Positions 2,668-15,370 of a stretch of DNA of 35,037 nucleotides are shown here, piece after piece. The notes below the pieces were generated by a model, which was given only the letters and a program-made list of their open reading frames with translations, searched no databases and had not been told where the DNA came from. The stretch is from an uncultured Merdimonas sp. (GTDB taxonomy: Bacteria > Bacillota > Clostridia > Lachnospirales > Lachnospiraceae): positions 1 through 35,037 of the forward strand of contig CALWQJ010000009.1 of assembly GCA_944383645.1 (NCBI GenBank), in the 5' to 3' direction. Position numbers and translations under genes: made by a program. The number at the start of each line of letters is the position of its first letter. Position 1 is the first letter of the stretch.

Positions 2668-3561
2668 ATGAAGATAGCAGTAACCTACGACAATGGAAAT
2701 ATTTTTCAGCATTTTGGAAAGACAGAATTTTTTAAAGTATATGAGGTGGAGGACGGCAAAGTCGTCTCCAGCGAGGTGATCGGCTCAAACGGCGTGGGCC
2801 ACGGCGCTCTGGCCGGGCTTTTGGCAGACAGGGCCGTGGATGTACTCATCTGCGGCGGCATCGGCGGCGGAGCCCAGGCGGCCCTGGAGGAAGCGGGCGT
2901 GGAGCTGTGCGCCGGAGCCGAAGGGGACGCGGACAGAGCGGTGGAGGCTTATCTGAAGGGCGAGCTGGTTTCCTCCGGAGCGAACTGCGACCACCACCAT
3001 CACGAGGAAGGCCATTCCTGCGGGGATCACGAGGAGGATCACGGCTGCGGCAGCCATGAGGAGGGCCATTCCTGCGGCGCGGGCGGCTGCGGTTCTGGCT
3101 GCGGCGGCTGCGGAAGCGCCCGTCCGGCCCTGACCGGGCGCAACGTGGGCAAGACCTGCCGCACCCATTACCGGGGAACCTTCAACGACGGAACCCAGTT
3201 CGATTCTTCCTACGACCGGGGCGAGCCGCTGGAGTTCATCTGCGGCGCGGGCCAGATGATCCGGGGCTTCGACGCTGCCGTGGCAGACATGGAGGTCGGC
3301 CAGGTAGTGGACGTTCATCTGATGCCGGAGGAGGCCTACGGTATGCCGGATCCGAACGCTGTTTTCACCCTGGAGATCGCGGATCTTCCCGGTTCCGAAG
3401 ATCTGGAGGCAGGCCAGCAGGTATGGCTTACCAACCAGTACGGCCAGCCCTTCCCGGTGAAGGTGGCGGCGAAGGAGGAGAAGACGATCACCTTTGACGC
3501 CAATCACGAGATGGCGGGAAAGGAGCTGAATTTCCGCATCGAGCTGGTCGAGGTGAAATAG
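2668..3561 (+). CDS. Fusion: NifX/FeMo-cofactor-type domain + His/Cys-rich linker + SlyD-like FKBP prolyl isomerase
   Basis: A 297-residue protein with three parts. Residues 1-100 match the dinitrogenase iron-molybdenum cofactor (NifX/NifB C-terminal) fold: MKIAVTYDNG start, HFGKTEFFKVYEVEDG, and a glycine-rich ICGGIGGGAQ turn. Residues 107-149 are a metal-binding tract with 9 His and 7 Cys, including the unit EEGHSCG twice and a GCGSGCGGCGS tail. Residues 160-297 are an FKBP/SlyD-type peptidyl-prolyl isomerase: GTFNDGTQFDSSYDRGEPLEF, GQMIRGFDAAVADMEVGQVV, then an inserted-flap-like region. The ATG at 2668 has GGAGG nine bases upstream; an open frame running back to 2590 lacks such a site. 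In SlyD a His/Cys tail binds nickel; here it lies between the domains. A role as metal carrier or metallochaperone is inferred. No nif or hydrogenase genes are nearby. Confidence 0.85.
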   Translation: MKIAVTYDNGNIFQHFGKTEFFKVYEVEDGKVVSSEVIGSNGVGHGALAGLLADRAVDVLICGGIGGGAQAALEEAGVELCAGAEGDADRAVEAYLKGELVSSGANCDHHHHEEGHSCGDHEEDHGCGSHEEGHSCGAGGCGSGCGGCGSARPALTGRNVGKTCRTHYRGTFNDGTQFDSSYDRGEPLEFICGAGQMIRGFDAAVADMEVGQVVDVHLMPEEAYGMPDPNAVFTLEIADLPGSEDLEAGQQVWLTNQYGQPFPVKVAAKEEKTITFDANHEMAGKELNFRIELVEVK

Positions 3562-7686: not shown

Positions 7687-7719
7687 GATGATTTCTCCTT
7701 TTGCAAAATCCGCGGGAAT

Positions 7720-7750
7720 AAAAAAGCTGCCATATCAGGCGATACGACAG
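7720..7750 (-). terminator. Rho-independent terminator of tracrRNA
   Basis: A 10-bp stem (7741-7750 with 7727-7736, two G-U pairs), a four-base loop and six U residues at 7720-7725 on the minus strand. It doubles as the last structural hairpin of the tracrRNA and separates it from the hydrolase gene that starts at 7686. Confidence 0.88.
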
Positions 7751-7833
7751 TTTTTATGCTGCATCCGCAGCTCTTCTTAAAAAGAAGTGGGTTCGAAAAA
7801 ATTCTTATTTGAACTTATAGTGTAAATTTGTAT
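7720..7833 (-). ncRNA. tracrRNA of the type II-A system
   Basis: Leftward RNA of about 114 nt. Its 5' part (bases 7831 down to 7811) pairs with the array repeat: ACAAAUUUACACUAU is an exact 15-nt complement, then an AAGU bulge faces GA in the repeat, then UCAAAU pairs with GUUUGA. This bulged layout is the same as in the S. pyogenes crRNA:tracrRNA duplex. After an AU-rich nexus region come three hairpins: CUUCUU/AAGAAG (7773-7787), GCUGC-GGAU-GCAGC (7758-7771), and a 10-bp terminator stem with a U run (7720-7750). A near-perfect promoter precedes it. The ends are predicted from promoter and terminator and not mapped. Confidence 0.9.
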
Positions 7834-7839
7834 ATTTAT

Positions 7840-7869
7840 ACTATAGCGTATGGAAGGGGCGGGTGTCAA
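7840..7869 (-). promoter_or_regulatory. tracrRNA promoter
   Basis: On the minus strand the -35 box is TTGACA (7864-7869) and the -10 box TATAGT (7840-7845), with an 18-bp spacer. The predicted start is near 7833, just at the first base of the anti-repeat. The -10 box is also one arm of an imperfect palindrome (7816-7827 with 7834-7845). Confidence 0.85.
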
Positions 7870-7887
7870 TCCTGATTCAAAAAATGC

Positions 7888-7914
7888 TTGCAATTTCCAG
7901 CAAAATATGATAAT
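7888..7914 (+). promoter_or_regulatory. Candidate cas operon promoter
   Basis: TTGCAA at 7888-7893 and GATAAT at 7909-7914 with a 15-bp gap, or overlapping TATGAT at 7906-7911 with a shorter gap. The spacing is poor, so the site is tentative; transcription would begin near 7920 and give a cas9 leader of about 165 bases. It is divergent from the tracrRNA promoter and no better rightward promoter is visible between there and cas9. Confidence 0.4.
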
Positions 7915-7956
7915 TTAATTATGGAGAACAAAGAACTTAATTTTGTTTTTCTGTTT

Positions 7957-7997
7957 AAACTCCTGTTGGAGAACAAGTTTGAGAATAGCGTAGATTT
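7957..7997 (+). ncRNA. Solo degenerate CRISPR repeat with guide-like 5' flank in cas9 leader (candidate crRNA-like regulator)
   Basis: Bases 7977-7997 read GTTTGAGAATAG-C-GTA-G-ATTT and match the array repeat at 19 of 21 positions (differences at repeat positions 13 and 17). One difference gives a G-U pair and one a single mismatch with the tracrRNA anti-repeat, so the duplex should still form. The 20 bases before it (7957-7976) sit where a type II crRNA guide would be. They include CTCC-TGTT-GGAG and end in TGGAGAACAA, which is repeated exactly at 7922-7931. The element lies inside the predicted cas9 mRNA leader. That it makes a functional guide RNA is inference; a decayed array remnant is the main alternative. 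Confidence 0.6.
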
Positions 7998-7998
7998 C

Positions 7999-8066
7999 AA
8001 AGAACAGACTGCGGATGCAGCGTGGGACGGACATAAGGTCTTTACTGCATCCGCAGTCTGTTCTTT
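7999..8066 (+). repeat. Perfect 22-bp inverted repeat in the cas9 leader
   Basis: Arms at 7999-8020 and 8045-8066 are exact reverse complements around a 24-base loop. As mRNA this would be a very stable hairpin ending eight bases before the cas9 Shine-Dalgarno (8075-8079). It is not followed by a proper T run, so it is unlikely to be a simple terminator. Both arms contain the tracrRNA-like core CTGCGGATGCAG. It could protect the 5' end of cas9 mRNA after RNase III cleavage at the solo repeat, or limit ribosome access. Confidence 0.85.
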
Positions 8067-8087
8067 TATACAATGGAGGATCTCTAT

Positions 8088-11000
8088 ATGAAAAAACATC
8101 AGGATTACTTTTTGGGACTGGATCTGGGAACCGGGTCGGTAGGATGGTGCGTGACGGACACAGAGTATCGAATCCTGAAAGCCAACCGGAAGCGGACGAT
8201 CGGAACTGTGCTGTTTTCCACAGCGGAGACGGCAAAAGAAAGGAGAACGCTTCGCTGTGCCAGGCGGCGGCTGAGACGGCAGAAGGAAAGGCTTCGCTGC
8301 CTGCAGGAATTGTTTCGTGAAGAGATTGAGAAGGTGGATCCGGGGTTCTTTTTCCGGCTGCAGGAAAGTCCCTATGCGGTGGAAGAAAAGCAGAATCCCG
8401 ACGGGAGCAGGGCGGAGCTTCCCTATGCGCTGTTCGTGGATAAGGATTATACGGATAAGGAATTTCACGCGCAGTACCCTACGATTTATCATCTGCGGAA
8501 AGAACTGATGGACAATCCGCTGCCCCATGATGCCAGGCTGGTATATCTGGCGGCAGCGCATATCATAAAGCACCGCGGCCATTTCCTGTCTTCTATAAGC
8601 GCGGAGGGAAAGGAAGCTTCTTTTGAAGAGCTTCTGTCCCAGTTCACCCAGCTCTGGAACGAATATATGGATCATACACTGACGCTCTCAGAGGGAGAAA
8701 AAGGGAAACTGAAGGAGACGCTGCTGGATGCTGGTATGACAAAATCAGGGAAAAAGACGGCGATCATCCGGCTTTTGGGGACAAAAGAGCCTCAGTTGAA
8801 AGAAATGGCAGCGCTTCTGACCGGCGCCTCCGCTTCCATAGAAAAGTTATTTGACAAGGAAGAGTATAAAAATCTGGAAGAAAATAAAATCCAGTTTGAC
8901 GCCTCGTCCTACGAAGAGAAGGAAGAATATTACCGCGAAGCGCTGGGAGATGATTTTGAGATCGTCGCGCGGGCACGGGCCATTTACAACTGGTGCGCCC
9001 TTTCCAAAATCCTGAAAAATAATCCCGGCGGCAGAATCTCCGATGCCAGAGTGGAGGATTACGAGCGGCACAGGACAGATTTGCAGCTTCTAAAAAAGCT
9101 GCTGAGCGAGAACTTTCCGAAAGAGACGCAGGAAAGAATTTTGAAGGTTTCAGAAAAAGGACTTGCGAATTACCCTGCCTATATCGGGATGACGAAAAAG
9201 AACGGAAAGAAAGTGCCGGTCGTGGAACGGTGCTCAAAGGAAGATTTTTATAAGCTGCTGGATAAGGAAATCCTGAAGAACCTGGGAGACAGCGAAGAAA
9301 AGGCATATATGGAGCAGCAGATCCGATTGGGCGGTTTTCTGCCGAAGCAGAAGGGAAATGGGAATTCCGTAGTGCCGTATCAGCTGCATGAAAAAGAGCT
9401 GAAATTGATTTTGAAAAACGCGGAAGGCTACCTGCCTTTCCTGAAGGAAAAGGATGAAAGCGGCTATACGGTATCGGAGAAAATCCTTCAGCTGCTCACA
9501 TTCCGCATCCCGTATTATGTCGGCCCTCTGTATGGCGGAGGCGGGGGACACAGCTATGCCTGGGTGAAACGGCTGGAAGATGGAAAGGTATATCCTTGGA
9601 ATTTCGAGCAGAAGATCGATGTGGAAAAGTCAGCGGAGGAATTCATCCGGCGGGCAGTCAGCACATGCAGCTGGTTGAAGAATGAGAAGGTGCTTCCGGC
9701 AGGCTCACTTTTGTTTGAAAAATTTAAGGTGCTGAACGAACTGAACAATGTCAGAATTTATGGCGAAAGGCTGGAGGTAGACATAAAGCAGAGAATCTAT
9801 CAGGAGCTTTTCTGCCGCCATCTGCGGATCACAAAGAAAAGACTGATCCAGTATCTGAAAAAGGAAGGTATTTACGCAAAGGTGGAACCGGAAGACATCT
9901 CTGGGCTCGATGAGAACTTCCAGTCCTCACTGAAATCCCTGCTGGCCTTTAAGCAGATACATTTTGACTCTCCCGTTCCAGAGCAGGCCATGGAGGATAT
10001 GATAAAGGACATTACTTTGTTTGGAGAGGATCCGAAGCTTTTGAAAAAGAGGCTGCTCGTCAAATACCCTGAGTATGGGAAGCAGATCCCTGCCATTATC
10101 AAGACGGTAAAATGTGACGGCTGGGCCTCTCTTTCTGAAAAGCTGCTGACAGGACTGGCAGTGGACATCCCAGGCGAGGGGCCTGTGGGAACCATCCTGT
10201 ATTTTCTCTGGAATACCCGGCAGAATTTGATGGAGATTCTCTATAACCCCGAGTATGCCTTTCAGGATCTGATCAAAACCGAAAATGGAGATACCGGAAG
10301 AAAAGATGGGAAAATAAGCTATGAGCTGGTGGATGAGCTGTATGTATCTCCTTCCGTCAAGCGGCAGATCTGGATGGCCCTGAAGGTGATCGAAGAGGTG
10401 CGCCATTTCATGGGCTGCGAACCGAAGAGGATTTTCGTAGAGATGGCCCGGGAAAAGCAGGAATCCAAGCGGACCTCGGACAGGAAAGCACAGATCATGC
10501 AGCTGTATTCTGCCATTCGGACAGACAAGGATTATAAGGAACTGCTAAAAGAACTGAACGGATGCTCCAATGATGAGCTTCGTAAGGATAAGCTGTTTTT
10601 GTATTTTATGCAGATGGGCCGCTGCGCGTATACAGGGAAAAGGATCCCATTTTCAGATTTGAAATATGACAGCCTCTATGATATCGACCATATCTATCCC
10701 CGCTCCCAGACGGCGGACGACAGCCTGGACAACCGGGTACTGGTAGACGCAGAGTATAACCGGGAGGAAAAGCAGGATCTGTATCCGATCAAAAAGGAGA
10801 CACGCGACGAGCGGGAAGCCCTCTGGCGCTTCTGGCGTGAGAAAAAATTTATCAGTGATGAAAAATATCGCAGGCTGACCCGCGCTGCAAAGTTGACAAA
10901 TGAGGAATTGATCGGTTTTGTAAACCGCCAGCTTGTGGAGACCAGGCAGAGTACAAAAGCCCTCGCGGAAGTGCTGAACCAGACGAAAACCGAACAGACA

Positions 11001-12143
11001 GAGGTGGTGTATGTAAAAGCGAAAAACGTGACTGAGTTCCGGCACAGGTACAAGCTTCTGAAGGTAAGGGCGCTGAACGATTTCCATCACGCCCAGGACG
11101 CCTACCTGAATATCGTGGTGGGGAACGTCTATCATCTGAAATTTACCAAGGATGTCCGCAGATATTTCCTGGACAAAGGGACCTATCGTACCTATAACCT
11201 TACGAAAATGTTTGACGAGACGGTAAAATGCGGGGAAGAGACGGCCTGGATCAAGGGCGTAAGCATCGGCACAGTCAAAGAAATGATGAAAAATGAAAAG
11301 ATTCTTGTGTCCCGGCAGACCTATGAGGAAAAAGGCAAGCTGTATGACGTCCAGCGGCTGAAAAAGAGCCAGGGCCAGGTGCCGGTGAAGGAAAGCGGGC
11401 GAATGTCCGATATCAGCAGGTACGGCGGATACGGAAGCGCGAAAAATACATATTTTATGCTTGTGGAAGCAGAAGATAAAAAGAAAAAGGAAAGCCTCTG
11501 GATTCTGCCCGTGCCGCTTTATCTGAAGCAGAAGATAGAAAGTTCCGAAGAATATGCCCGGAGTTATTTTGAGCAGGAATACAGCCTTTGCCATGTCAGA
11601 GTGCTGAAAAAAATCAGGATACAGACATTGTTTGTATACGAAGGCTTCCGGATGCGGCTGGCCGGGAGAAGCGGCAGCCAGCTGGTATTCCACAATGCCA
11701 ACGAGCTGTGCCTTCCGGCACGTCATCACAACACCATCCGGCAGATCAGCAAGCATATACAGGAGCTCCAGTACGATAAAGACGCCGCGGTATCTGATAA
11801 CGGCCTGCTCACGGAGCAGGATTTAGACGCCCTGTATGCAGAGCTGTGTGAAAAGCTTAAAGGCTCCGTATACCAGACGATGCTCGGAGGATATATCGAA
11901 AAATATGAATCAGGATATGAAAAATATCAGAAGCTGACGCTGGAAAAGAAAGCGCAGGCTTTGTGGCAGATGCTGAAAATCTTCCAGTGTACCCCGGAAA
12001 TGCCGGATCTGACGCTGATAGGAGGCAGCAAGAGCCAGGGGGCCATCCGCATGGGCATGAACGTGACGGGCAGAAAGAGCCTGGCGCTCATCCATCAGTC
12101 AGTAACCGGAATCTATGAACGGGTAGAGAAAATCAGAGGATAA
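8088..12143 (+). CDS. cas9: CRISPR-associated endonuclease Cas9, type II-A
   Basis: RNA-guided double-strand DNA nuclease of 1351 residues, a typical II-A size. RuvC-I: LGLDLGTGSVGW with catalytic Asp12. Arginine-rich bridge helix: residues about 52-76 (RCARRRLRRQKERLR). RuvC-II: RIFVEMAREKQ with Glu785. HNH: YDIDHIYPRS with His868. RuvC-III: DFHHAQDAYLN with His1000 and Asp1004. All nuclease residues are present, so it should cut both strands. The C terminus (TLIHQSVTGIYE-like) is the usual end of the PAM-interacting domain, but the PAM cannot be read. I chose ATG 8088 because GGAGG (8075-8079) lies eight bases before it; the in-frame ATG at 8073 overlaps that site. It begins the cas9-cas1-cas2-csn2 operon, four bases before cas1. 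Confidence 0.97.
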   Translation: MKKHQDYFLGLDLGTGSVGWCVTDTEYRILKANRKRTIGTVLFSTAETAKERRTLRCARRRLRRQKERLRCLQELFREEIEKVDPGFFFRLQESPYAVEEKQNPDGSRAELPYALFVDKDYTDKEFHAQYPTIYHLRKELMDNPLPHDARLVYLAAAHIIKHRGHFLSSISAEGKEASFEELLSQFTQLWNEYMDHTLTLSEGEKGKLKETLLDAGMTKSGKKTAIIRLLGTKEPQLKEMAALLTGASASIEKLFDKEEYKNLEENKIQFDASSYEEKEEYYREALGDDFEIVARARAIYNWCALSKILKNNPGGRISDARVEDYERHRTDLQLLKKLLSENFPKETQERILKVSEKGLANYPAYIGMTKKNGKKVPVVERCSKEDFYKLLDKEILKNLGDSEEKAYMEQQIRLGGFLPKQKGNGNSVVPYQLHEKELKLILKNAEGYLPFLKEKDESGYTVSEKILQLLTFRIPYYVGPLYGGGGGHSYAWVKRLEDGKVYPWNFEQKIDVEKSAEEFIRRAVSTCSWLKNEKVLPAGSLLFEKFKVLNELNNVRIYGERLEVDIKQRIYQELFCRHLRITKKRLIQYLKKEGIYAKVEPEDISGLDENFQSSLKSLLAFKQIHFDSPVPEQAMEDMIKDITLFGEDPKLLKKRLLVKYPEYGKQIPAIIKTVKCDGWASLSEKLLTGLAVDIPGEGPVGTILYFLWNTRQNLMEILYNPEYAFQDLIKTENGDTGRKDGKISYELVDELYVSPSVKRQIWMALKVIEEVRHFMGCEPKRIFVEMAREKQESKRTSDRKAQIMQLYSAIRTDKDYKELLKELNGCSNDELRKDKLFLYFMQMGRCAYTGKRIPFSDLKYDSLYDIDHIYPRSQTADDSLDNRVLVDAEYNREEKQDLYPIKKETRDEREALWRFWREKKFISDEKYRRLTRAAKLTNEELIGFVNRQLVETRQSTKALAEVLNQTKTEQTEVVYVKAKNVTEFRHRYKLLKVRALNDFHHAQDAYLNIVVGNVYHLKFTKDVRRYFLDKGTYRTYNLTKMFDETVKCGEETAWIKGVSIGTVKEMMKNEKILVSRQTYEEKGKLYDVQRLKKSQGQVPVKESGRMSDISRYGGYGSAKNTYFMLVEAEDKKKKESLWILPVPLYLKQKIESSEEYARSYFEQEYSLCHVRVLKKIRIQTLFVYEGFRMRLAGRSGSQLVFHNANELCLPARHHNTIRQISKHIQELQYDKDAAVSDNGLLTEQDLDALYAELCEKLKGSVYQTMLGGYIEKYESGYEKYQKLTLEKKAQALWQMLKIFQCTPEMPDLTLIGGSKSQGAIRMGMNVTGRKSLALIHQSVTGIYERVEKIRG

Positions 12144-12147
12144 GAAA

Positions 12148-13020
12148 ATGGGTTGGAGGACGGTAGTCATCACCAGAAGAGCCAAGCTGGATCTGCAGCT
12201 GGGAAGCCTTGTGGTCAGAAATGAAAACGTCATAAAAATCAATATTGATGAAATTTCCGTGCTGCTCATTGAATGCACGGCGGTTTCGCTGACCGCGGCC
12301 CTGCTTGCCGAGCTCACAAGAAAAAAAGTGAAGGTAATTTTCTGCGACGAGAAGAGGCTGCCGTCTTCCGAGCTGGTACCCTGCTATGGCAGCCACGACA
12401 CCAGCCTGAAATACAAGAGACAGGCCCTCTGGCAGACCGAGATGAAAGAACGGATCTGGACGGAAATCATCAGGGAAAAGATATCTCAGCAGGCGCTTTT
12501 CCTGCGGCATAAAGGGAAGAAAGAAGCGCGGCTGCTGGAGCAGTACCTGACAGAAATCGCCCCCGGGGATTCGTCAAACCGGGAAGGACATGCGGCAAAG
12601 GTGTATTTTAATGCCCTGTTTGGCGTGAATTATTCCCGAACCCAGGATAATGTGCTAAATGCGGCGCTGAATTACGGCTACAGCATTCTGCTTTCCGCAG
12701 TGGCAAGGGAGATTGTCGCGCTGGGCTACTGCACCCAGCTGGGGCTTGGCCACATAAACCAGTTTAACTCCTTTAATTTCGCCTGTGATTTGATGGAGCC
12801 GTTCCGCATCCTGATTGACAGGCTGGTATGCAGTCTGGAGCTCTGTGAGTTCGATGCCTCTGTCCGGCATCAGCTGGTAAATATTTTGAATCACGAGGTT
12901 ATAATCGGCGGGAACAGAGAATATGTGGGGAAAGCCATACGGATCTATGTAAAGAGCGTCTGCGACGCCCTGGAGGAAGGGAATCCGGAGCTTTTAAAAT
13001 TTTACAGGTATGAAGAATGA
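12148..13020 (+). CDS. cas1: CRISPR-associated integrase Cas1 (type II)
   Basis: A 290-residue Cas1, the catalytic subunit of the Cas1-Cas2 spacer integrase. The N terminus ([15 protein letters not shown]...[11 protein letters not shown]) is the type II beta domain. Metal ligands are visible: Glu146 in [11 protein letters not shown], His202 in [13 protein letters not shown] and the acidic Asp214/Glu217 in [10 protein letters not shown]. It begins four bases after the cas9 stop and overlaps cas2 by four bases (ATGA), so the genes are tightly coupled. Length and active site are intact, which agrees with the intact leader-proximal repeats. Confidence 0.96.
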
Positions 13021-13337
13021 GCTATCGATATATGAGAGTGATCGTATTATTTGACTTGCCGGTAGTGACGGCGGAAGACAGGCGGGAATATACAAAGTTC
13101 AGAAAATATCTGCTGAAAAGCGGTTTCCTGATGATGCAGGAATCTGTCTACTGCAAGATGGCTTTAAACCAGACCTCGGCCAGTTCTATTATGGATGGAG
13201 TAAGGAAGAACAGTCCTGCGGAGGGTCTCGTTCAGATGCTTTGCATTACAGAAAAACAGTATAATAAAATGGAATGTGTCTGCGGGAAGATTACTAAAAC
13301 AGTTCTGGATACAGATGAAAGGCTGGTAATCCTGTGA
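13017..13337 (+). CDS. cas2: CRISPR-associated Cas2 (type II)
   Basis: A 106-residue ferredoxin-like protein that forms the central dimer of the spacer integration complex. The signature [11 protein letters not shown] sits near the N terminus with the conserved Asp at residue 13, and [21 protein letters not shown] is the standard second segment. The start overlaps the cas1 stop (ATGA), as is usual for translational coupling. Length is normal for type II Cas2. Confidence 0.95.
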
Positions 13338-13406
13338 GGGCGATGAGGATGCAGACAGGCACAATCAGGCACAGGCAGGTTTCTGGCCTGCAGAAAAGGA
13401 GAATGT

Positions 13407-14063
13407 ATGAAATTAGTAAACTGCAGCAGGCAGCTCAGTCTGGAGCTGCGTCTGGGAGAGCCCTGCTATCTGGTGCTGGAGTCTCCGCGCGAATTCAGAA
13501 CAGCCGTCACAGAACTTGACGCCTCGGTAAAGGAAGATACCGAAGACTGGATTCTGTCGGAGGGCGAAGAGATCCTGGAAAAGAGTTCGACAGCCGAGGT
13601 GATATTTTCTCCATGGACGATAGAACTGGACGGCAGGAAGATACAAAAAGCCTTACTGAAACGCGTCCTGCAGGTAATAGGCCAGGATGAAAACTTTCGC
13701 ATCCAGAAAATCCTGAGCGAGCTGCAGCTTCTGCTGGATGAAGCGGGTGAAGAGATGGGCTGCAGCTTCGATTATGAGGCAGAAGACATTTCAGAAATAA
13801 TCAAAGAATGTAACATACATTTTTCAAAAGAAGGAGATGTGCTGGCGGATCTGCATCAGTATTTCAGAGTCTGCGCAGAATTTTTAAAGATAAAGCTGTT
13901 TATCTTGATCGGCATGAGAAATTATTTTACGAATGGGGAGATAGAAACGCTGTCCAGGGAAGCCGGCTACGCAGGCAGCAGTCTCCTGTTCCTTGAAAAC
14001 TTCAGCGATGGAACAGAAAAAAATATAATTTTAATAGACAGAGATCTATGCCGGGTTGTATAA
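13407..14063 (+). CDS. csn2: Csn2, type II-A adaptation protein
   Basis: A 218-residue Csn2, the ring-forming double-strand-DNA-end-binding protein that defines subtype II-A and is needed for spacer capture together with Cas9, Cas1 and Cas2. Visible features are the N-terminal beta-rich part, FSPWTIELDGRKIQKALLKR in the middle, and the C-terminal LFILIGMRNYFTNGEIETL followed by NIILIDRDLCRVV. The ATG at 13407 is preceded by AAAGGAG. It stands 69 bases after cas2, the only real gap in the operon, and 59 bases before the array. Confidence 0.92.
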   Translation: MKLVNCSRQLSLELRLGEPCYLVLESPREFRTAVTELDASVKEDTEDWILSEGEEILEKSSTAEVIFSPWTIELDGRKIQKALLKRVLQVIGQDENFRIQKILSELQLLLDEAGEEMGCSFDYEAEDISEIIKECNIHFSKEGDVLADLHQYFRVCAEFLKIKLFILIGMRNYFTNGEIETLSREAGYAGSSLLFLENFSDGTEKNIILIDRDLCRVV

Positions 14064-14122
14064 TAATATCGGTACCTGCAAATTTATAATGCGGATAGGG
14101 CATTTATTCCCGGACATTTGAG
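14064..14122 (+). promoter_or_regulatory. CRISPR leader with II-A leader-anchoring motif and array -10 box
   Basis: The 59 bases between csn2 and the first repeat are AT-rich. They end in ATTTGAG (14116-14122), which is identical to the leader-anchoring sequence shown in streptococcal II-A systems to direct spacer insertion. A perfect TATAAT at 14085-14090 could be the -10 box for array transcription; the best -35 (TTGTAT, 14056-14061) is too far upstream at 23 bp. Confidence 0.75.
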
Positions 14123-15260
14123 GTTTGAGAATAGTGTAAATTTGTAGGTTACTTACTACTTTATGCAAGGCTATGGGACAGGATTGGGTTTGAGAATAGT
14201 GTAAATTTGTAGGTTACTTACTACCCCGTCCTGAAGGTTCAGAATCAGCTCTTGTTTGAGAATAGTGTAAATTTGTAGGTTACTTACTACTATGACCTTT
14301 GCAAGAATGGGTTATCATCAGTTTGAGAATAGTGTAAATTTGTAGGTTACTTACTACTTGAAAACCTTACGTTCCTGCTCGGCTTTTGTTTGAGAATAGT
14401 GTAAATTTGTAGGTTACTTACTATCGTGGCTCTTACAATCTCACTGCTTACCTGTTTGAGAATAGTGTAAATTTGTAGGTTACTTACTAGCTGGTTCGCC
14501 GTGATATCCTTTTCCTCCTGTTTGAGAATAGTGTAAATTTGTAGGTTACTTACTACTGCATCATTCAACGCATACTTCATTTTCAGTTTGAGAATAGTGT
14601 AAATTTGTAGGTTACTTACTAATCAGCTCCCAATACGTAACAATTTCACTTGTTTGAGAATAGTGTAAATTTGTAGGTTACTTACTAATTAAATTACTCT
14701 GATAAAGTGTTATGGGTTTGAGAATAGTGTAAATTTGTAGGTTACTTACTGCTTCGATAATGTTTGCAGACTGTGCCTGCTGTTTGAGAATAGTGTAAAT
14801 TTGTAGGTTACTTACTGCATGCAAGACAAAGGCTTGTTGGGTATATAGTTTGAGAATAGTGTAAATTTGTAGGTTACTTACTGTCCCCTTGTAGTAGAAT
14901 CCTATAAGGTTAGTTTGAGAATAGTGTAAATTTGTAGGTTACTTACTCCATTACTATCCGGTTAAAGTAATAGCTTCTGTTTGAGAATAGTGTAAATTTG
15001 TAGGTTACTTACTCGGCCGTAGGGATTGAGACCCTTCCGCCTGCGTTTGAGAATAGTGTAAATTTGTAGATTACTTACTCCTGCATTGCATAACAAAGTA
15101 CCCCGAAACACGTTTGAGAATAGTGAAAATTTGTAGGTTACTTAAGTTCACCATAACAGCCACCTTTCCGCCCGCAGGTTTGAGAATAGTGAAAATTTGT
15201 AGAGTACTTAAACAGTCCACCTGTGTTCCGCCCGGATAGCCCGTTTGAGAATAGTGTAAA
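14123..15260 (+). CRISPR. Type II-A CRISPR array, 18 repeats (last truncated), 17 spacers
   Basis: The repeat is 36 bases: GTTTGAGAATAGTGTAAATT then TGTAGGTTACTTACTA. Repeats start at 14123, 14188, 14254, 14321, 14388, 14454, 14520, 14586, 14652, 14716, 14782, 14848, 14913, 14979, 15045, 15112, 15178 and 15243. Spacers are 28-31 bases (mostly 30). The 36th base is A in repeats 1-9, G in 10-12 and C in 13-15. Repeat 15 has one internal change, repeats 16-17 share T-to-A at position 15 and have altered 3' ends, and repeat 18 stops after 18 bases. Decay at the right end, and csn2 plus leader at the left, show that new spacers enter at the left. Confidence 0.98.
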
Positions 15261-15370
15261 CTCATAGCTCGGCATAAAGAATGGTTATGTAGATGAGCAT
15301 ATTTGGCTGGTGATATTCTAAAAGTAAGAAGAAACCTATAAAAATTGAAAAGTTAAACCTCTAATGAAAT

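Follow-up and report, generated by a model that had tools for sequence, protein, structure and literature searches.

A solo CRISPR repeat in the cas9 leader of a type II-A locus as a candidate crRNA-like guide for cas9 autorepression

CRISPR-derived RNA regulatory elements reportedly occur mostly in type I and type V-A systems. Among the described cases, CreR are crRNA-like RNAs that regulate the promoter of their own cas operon, in types I and V-A (PMC12737573). In the II-A system of S. pyogenes, tracr-L represses the cas promoter, Pcas, through an 11-nt match and without cutting (PMC8616872). In S. aureus, Pcas of the S. pyogenes system was repressed by a crRNA with 11 matching bases together with the short tracrRNA, tracr-S, and Pcas-gfp was as low with this 11-base crRNA and short tracrRNA as with tracr-L (PMC11417352), which is the arrangement that we propose for the cas9 leader described here. 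In Mycoplasma gallisepticum F a putative scaRNA has been predicted, from the reverse strand, immediately upstream of cas9, and in a II-A system of Listeria an sgRNA-like RNA has been predicted upstream of the cas genes (PMC6199352). The scaRNA predicted beside cas9 aside, our literature search found, in the accessible parts of its sources, no crRNA-like autorepressor of cas9 in type II.

The window of 35,037 nucleotides that holds the locus studied here spans an entire contig of a draft genome of 2.73 Mb, which comprises 194 contigs and is 92% complete. Its cas9, cas1, cas2 and csn2 genes all score above the NCBIfam cut-offs, and the system is therefore of subtype II-A; an Rfam search of the window gave no match. 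Sequence and prediction together support a repeat copy in the cas9 leader, a tracrRNA gene, the potential of the two to pair and a seed match, alongside the cas9-cas1-cas2-csn2 set (Table 1). From an initial annotation, the solo repeat had emerged as part of a candidate autoregulatory guide; that reading was made without two of the elements found here, the divergent tracrRNA and a perfect 22-bp hairpin (7999-8020/8045-8066). The proposed leader RNA would share with tracr-L the subtype and an autorepression by Cas9 through a short match at Pcas. In tracr-L, however, a single transcript of the tracrRNA gene serves as both guide and tracrRNA, whereas here a separate crRNA-like RNA would come from the cas9 leader. 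A tracrRNA extended at its 5' end and carrying its own Pcas guide was looked for at this locus and not found: when 20-mers from the minus strand of 7837-7900 were compared with 7687-8087, the longest self-match was 8. With CreR the element has in common that it is stand-alone, repeat-like and situated at a cas operon, but CreR works with a type I or V-A effector, whereas this is a II-A, tracrRNA-dependent system and the element lies inside the cas9 leader. Like scaRNA, the solo repeat is an array-sense partial repeat outside the array with complementarity to tracrRNA; on its two sides lie a weak predicted promoter and a terminator-like hairpin. The scaRNA of F. novicida has other genes as its targets, whereas here the candidate target is cas9 and the candidate RNA is contained in the cas9 transcript. 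Racr, or solitary repeat units, are likewise single repeat units outside an array, yet they are described as virus-encoded inhibitors (PMC10651486), whereas the solo repeat sits between tracrRNA and cas9 in the cas locus.

Table 1. Features of the locus, in window coordinates unless another contig is named.
Feature	Position	Strand	Remarks
Predicted tracrRNA	about 7833-7722	-	divergent, upstream of cas9
tracrRNA anti-repeat	about 7836-7807	-	pairs with first part of array repeat
Predicted tracrRNA promoter, TTGACA-18-TATAGT	7869-7840	-	11/12 consensus matches
Terminator-like site of predicted tracrRNA	7750-7727	-	prediction
Best predicted cas9 promoter, TTGCAA-15-GATAAT	7888-7914	+	start about 7921, weak
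Candidate target, 10-base seed match	7922-7931	+	at predicted cas9 start site
Target flank AGAACTT	7932-7938	+	has A4 C5, lacks G6 G7 of inferred NNNACGG
Putative guide, 20 nt, 5' of solo repeat	7957-7976	+	PAM-proximal 10 bases are 7967-7976
Solo repeat GTTTGAGAATAGCGTAGATTT	7977-7997	+	first 21 bases of array repeat, 2 changes
Leader hairpin	7999-8066	+	22-bp perfect arms 7999-8020/8045-8066, then TATAC; terminator-like
cas9	8088-12143	+	TIGR01865, above NCBIfam cut-off
cas1, cas2, csn2	12148-14063	+	TIGR03639, TIGR01573, TIGR01866, above NCBIfam cut-offs
CRISPR array	14123-15278	+	18 repeats, 17 spacers, last repeat degenerate
Deletion locus L153 of sister species (G003:C237)	2614-2990		matches window 7690-7894 and 14014-14153

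The reported repeat copy was confirmed: 19 of the 21 bases of 7977-7997 agree with the array repeat, on the sense strand, and the cas9 ATG (8088) follows 111 bases downstream. A genome search with the repeat 21-mer, allowing up to three mismatches, returned 19 sites, namely the 18 array repeats and the solo repeat, which is the sole non-array site at this threshold in the 2.73 Mb draft genome. Compared over its full length, the copy matches 21 of 36 bases, and past base 21 (the last 15 bases) the likeness is at chance level. The retained stretch falls inside the tracrRNA-pairing part of the repeat, for which the predicted pairing of array repeat and anti-repeat comprises the first 24 bases and three more, and 21 repeat bases are about the length retained in a mature crRNA. 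Because a decaying whole repeat is not expected to lose one half first, the kept half was either selected or copied alone. The predicted duplex of solo repeat and anti-repeat reaches -14.0 kcal/mol (-20.3 for the same 21 bases of the array version) and retains all array pairs of the stretch but one, the C at base 13 being unpaired. None of 1056 control 22-mers reached -14.0 kcal/mol; the best attained -13.0, 1 kcal/mol short of the solo duplex. In a predicted co-fold of leader and tracrRNA, a crRNA:tracrRNA-like duplex forms and the leader hairpin stays closed. The guide seed, for its part, is predicted to be able to fold on itself (CTCC-TGTT-GGAG).

The seed match, too, was found as claimed, with TGGAGAACAA present exactly at both 7922-7931 and 7967-7976 and AGAAC following the former at 7932-7936. 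The best predicted cas9 start is 7921, but the promoter is weak, having 9 of 12 matches and a short spacer (GATAAT box at 7909-7914), and a stricter scan that required a spacer of 16-18 did not list TTGCAA-15-GATAAT. Within 7837-8087, TGGAGAACAA is the only exact 10-mer repeat in direct orientation. The guide matches the intergenic region over 10 bases when anchored at its 3' end, against 0-8 bases for 18 control 20-mers, one in front of each array repeat and drawn from the 17 spacers and the end of the array leader; among window 20-mers outside the locus and the array, 19 of 33,169 have a 3'-anchored match of at least 10 to 7837-8087. In the whole genome there are 13 copies of the 10-mer, 11 of them elsewhere. 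The original estimate of one in a million for such an identity was overstated, since 0.3-0.6% of positions have a local exact 10-mer copy: in the window, 103 of 32,327 positions (0.32%) have a direct copy within 250 nt, as do 53 of 9,360 positions upstream of the relatives' cas9 (0.57%; 39 of 42 regions used), and with both orientations counted the values are 0.41% and 1.9%, respectively. We take the 10-base match at the predicted cas9 start to be suggestive, not overwhelming.

Protospacers for the array were sought in 397 genomes of the family, 385 relatives of G119 and 16 genomes of the genus, and additionally in 1 and 20 genomes from two other genera, all sets that overlap. Spacer 16 has a protospacer matching at 29/30 with the flank GCTACGG (G516, G119, G570), and spacer 17 one matching at 27/29 in G005 and G013, with the flank TGGACGG three times and TGGACCG once. 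A protospacer search with the arrays of the two nearest relatives produced one useful match, of a spacer of the closest relative, G445, to Dulem virus 39 (28/30, flank GGAACGG; by BLAST 29/30 over spacer bases 2-30 plus one flanking base); the Cas9 of G445 is 52% identical to that of the window, and 46% in the C-terminal part. The ACGG at positions 4-7 that is common to these three best protospacers suggests NNNACGG as the PAM. Four weaker matches were not used: those of spacer 6 (26/30, CGTAACT; mismatched at the PAM side) and spacer 1 (viral, 21 PAM-side bases, CTGGGCA, with the distal 8 bases mostly unlike), and those of spacers 2 (23/30, CAAACCT) and 10 (22/30, CAGGCTC), which like that of spacer 6 lie in genomes. 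Among their flanks, AC stands at positions 4-5 only in that of spacer 2, and ACGG in none of the four. No protospacer emerged when phages and plasmids were searched with the array, and scans of viral contigs with the exact PAM-proximal parts of 7 of the 17 spacers matched for one of the seven (spacer 1). The same phage and plasmid searches with the leader gave only short, weak matches; one, at E = 1e-3, covers the AT-rich stretch 7875-7919.

Judged by this PAM, the partial guide match at the cas9 promoter consists of 10 bases with a flank that holds half of the motif inferred from the three protospacers. AC occurs at flank positions 4-5 at 3040 of 70,018 window sites on both strands, and among these NNNAC sites a seed match that reaches 6 is confined to the target; AC is absent from these positions at all 11 further copies of the 10-mer in the genome. 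GTTTGAG, which flanks the solo element itself, departs from the inferred PAM, in agreement with the initial view that the element itself lacks one.

A single spacer base separates the leader hairpin from the solo repeat, and 8 bases separate its end from GGAGG at 8075; the leader folds with z = -7.2. Its arm 8000-8021 is 91% identical, with one gap, to tracrRNA positions 7778-7758, 240 bases apart, a likeness for which a genome-wide search gives E = 1.4. The arm is perhaps a copied piece of tracrRNA and, as it resembles tracrRNA, the 3' arm (8045-8066) could pair with tracrRNA. Arm 8000-8021 and the 3' part of tracrRNA have CTGCGGATGCAGC in common, plus most bases before it. The leader also contains an open frame of 56 codons (7921-8091), which begins at the predicted transcript start, overlaps the cas9 start with its stop codon as ATGA and has no NCBIfam match; with a 3% chance of staying open and a similar frame in 2 of 40 relatives, a leader peptide was set aside.

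How widespread is this arrangement? Two overlapping sets, of 395 and 397 genomes, contain 31 and 32 genomes, respectively, with a Cas9 relative (E <= 1e-50), each count including the window's own, and three additional loci came from genome contigs. Flanks were fetched for 42 of 43 relatives, two of which were dropped for having too little upstream sequence, leaving 40. A solo repeat, defined as a sense 21-mer with at least 17 matches to the repeat and at most 500 nt from cas9, was found in none of these 40 (best 15 matches, against 19 in the window), with 29 pooled repeats used for the 8 relatives whose own repeat is unknown. In G424 (L075), two tandem anti-repeat-like stretches were seen by eye at about -280 to -180 of cas9. 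Within the genus, cas9 occurs in one genome out of 16, that of the window. The sister species G003, with flanks 97.3% and 96.6% identical to the window, lacks about 7894-14013, so that target, solo repeat and the cas9-cas1-cas2-csn2 block are deleted, and retains the tracrRNA and two repeats that adjoin each other with no spacer between them. Cas9 relatives in plasmids (14 records) and phages (5) are all below 60% identity and, among the records listed, reach at most 43.5%. A lone repeat of the same type, with no second copy in the stretch inspected, occurs in another genus of the family (L164 141-176, G571:C180), and a scan of viral contigs with the repeat 21-mer, two bases being left free, gave the same intergenic match in two contigs (L083 231-251, L084 9378-9398), which is either a solitary repeat unit or chance.

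How might such a leader act on cas9? Our leading reading, tentative and given a probability of about 40%, is that crRNA-like cas autorepression exists here in a type II form, in which Cas9 represses its own gene. We envision that transcription from about 7921 would yield the guide followed by the tracrRNA-pairing part of a CRISPR repeat, and that the transcript would end at, or read through, the hairpin. The leader RNA would pair with the divergently made tracrRNA, be processed and loaded into Cas9, and direct Cas9 back to 7912-7931, the cas9 start site; there Cas9 would only block transcription, because ten seed base pairs would be too few for cutting. This would constitute a negative feedback, and crRNAs from the array would be competitors of the leader RNA for both tracrRNA and Cas9. 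We infer the transcription, processing, loading, DNA binding and repression by the leader RNA. The initial proposal of a crRNA-like autoregulatory guide is supported in part: it gains from the retained tracrRNA-pairing stretch, the match at the predicted start and the crRNA:tracrRNA-like co-fold, and loses by the overstated significance of the match, the half PAM and the weak promoter.

In favour of autorepression count a sole non-array repeat whose likeness is limited to the first 21 of 36 bases and whose pairing exceeds that of all controls, a seed match of 10 against 0-8 at the one NNNAC window site with a seed of at least 6, the lack of an AC flank at all 11 other 10-mer copies, the absence of a tracr-L-type self-match and, by analogy, the reported precedents of 11-nt matches (PMC8616872, PMC11417352). 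Against it count a flank, AGAACTT, without the GG of the inferred PAM, the local copy background, the weak promoter, an element seen in one genome and in 0 of 40 relatives, a solo duplex weaker than that of the array and 1 kcal/mol past the best control, and a seed that folds on itself. The same pairing would also suit a post-transcriptional control, in which tracrRNA would bind the solo repeat together with Cas9 and RNase III and either cut the leader or alter termination at the adjacent hairpin. Such a control, to which the perfect hairpin between solo repeat and GGAGG and the possible pairing of arm 8045-8066 with tracrRNA lend themselves, would treat the seed match as incidental and leaves unexplained that its 10 bases end exactly at the guide's 3' end and recur at the predicted start; with the hairpin closed in the predicted co-fold and an arm likeness of E = 1.4, we regard it as rather unlikely.

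We are similarly doubtful that the element is a non-functional fragment, made up of a partial repeat copy and a local duplication that drift within a long leader. Its occurrence in a single genome, the fact that local 10-mer copies are not very rare and the partial PAM would all accord with such drift, but a copy that retains 19 of 21 bases in the tracrRNA-pairing part and chance likeness past it, in sense orientation and with a pairing that beats all 1056 controls, would not be expected from it. A scaRNA-like or decoy RNA that regulates another gene, or titrates tracrRNA, fits the in-silico definition of scaRNA (PMC6199352) in part, through a sense partial repeat outside the array with a possible start and terminator; given 0 of 11 other genomic exact 10-mer sites with AC at flank positions 4-5, it appears improbable. 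Conceivably, the leader might even be guide and sensor at once, in a two-way tracrRNA-gated feedback in type II-A: the solo repeat would bind the anti-repeat and arm 8045-8066 the 3' region of tracrRNA, free tracrRNA would open the hairpin so that cas9 is read, and the processed solo RNA would guide Cas9 back. The odds of this scenario, small from the outset, were lowered further because the predicted co-fold leaves the hairpin closed, and we consider it very improbable.

Should the leader RNA indeed mediate autorepression, there would be a dual-RNA form of Cas9 autoregulation, with the repressor guide cut from the repressed mRNA itself. A corollary is that the dose of the guide would be tied to cas9 transcription, and that array crRNAs and tracrRNA would become inputs to the circuit. 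Moreover, crRNA-like cas autorepression, as described for types I and V-A, would then reach type II without tracr-L.
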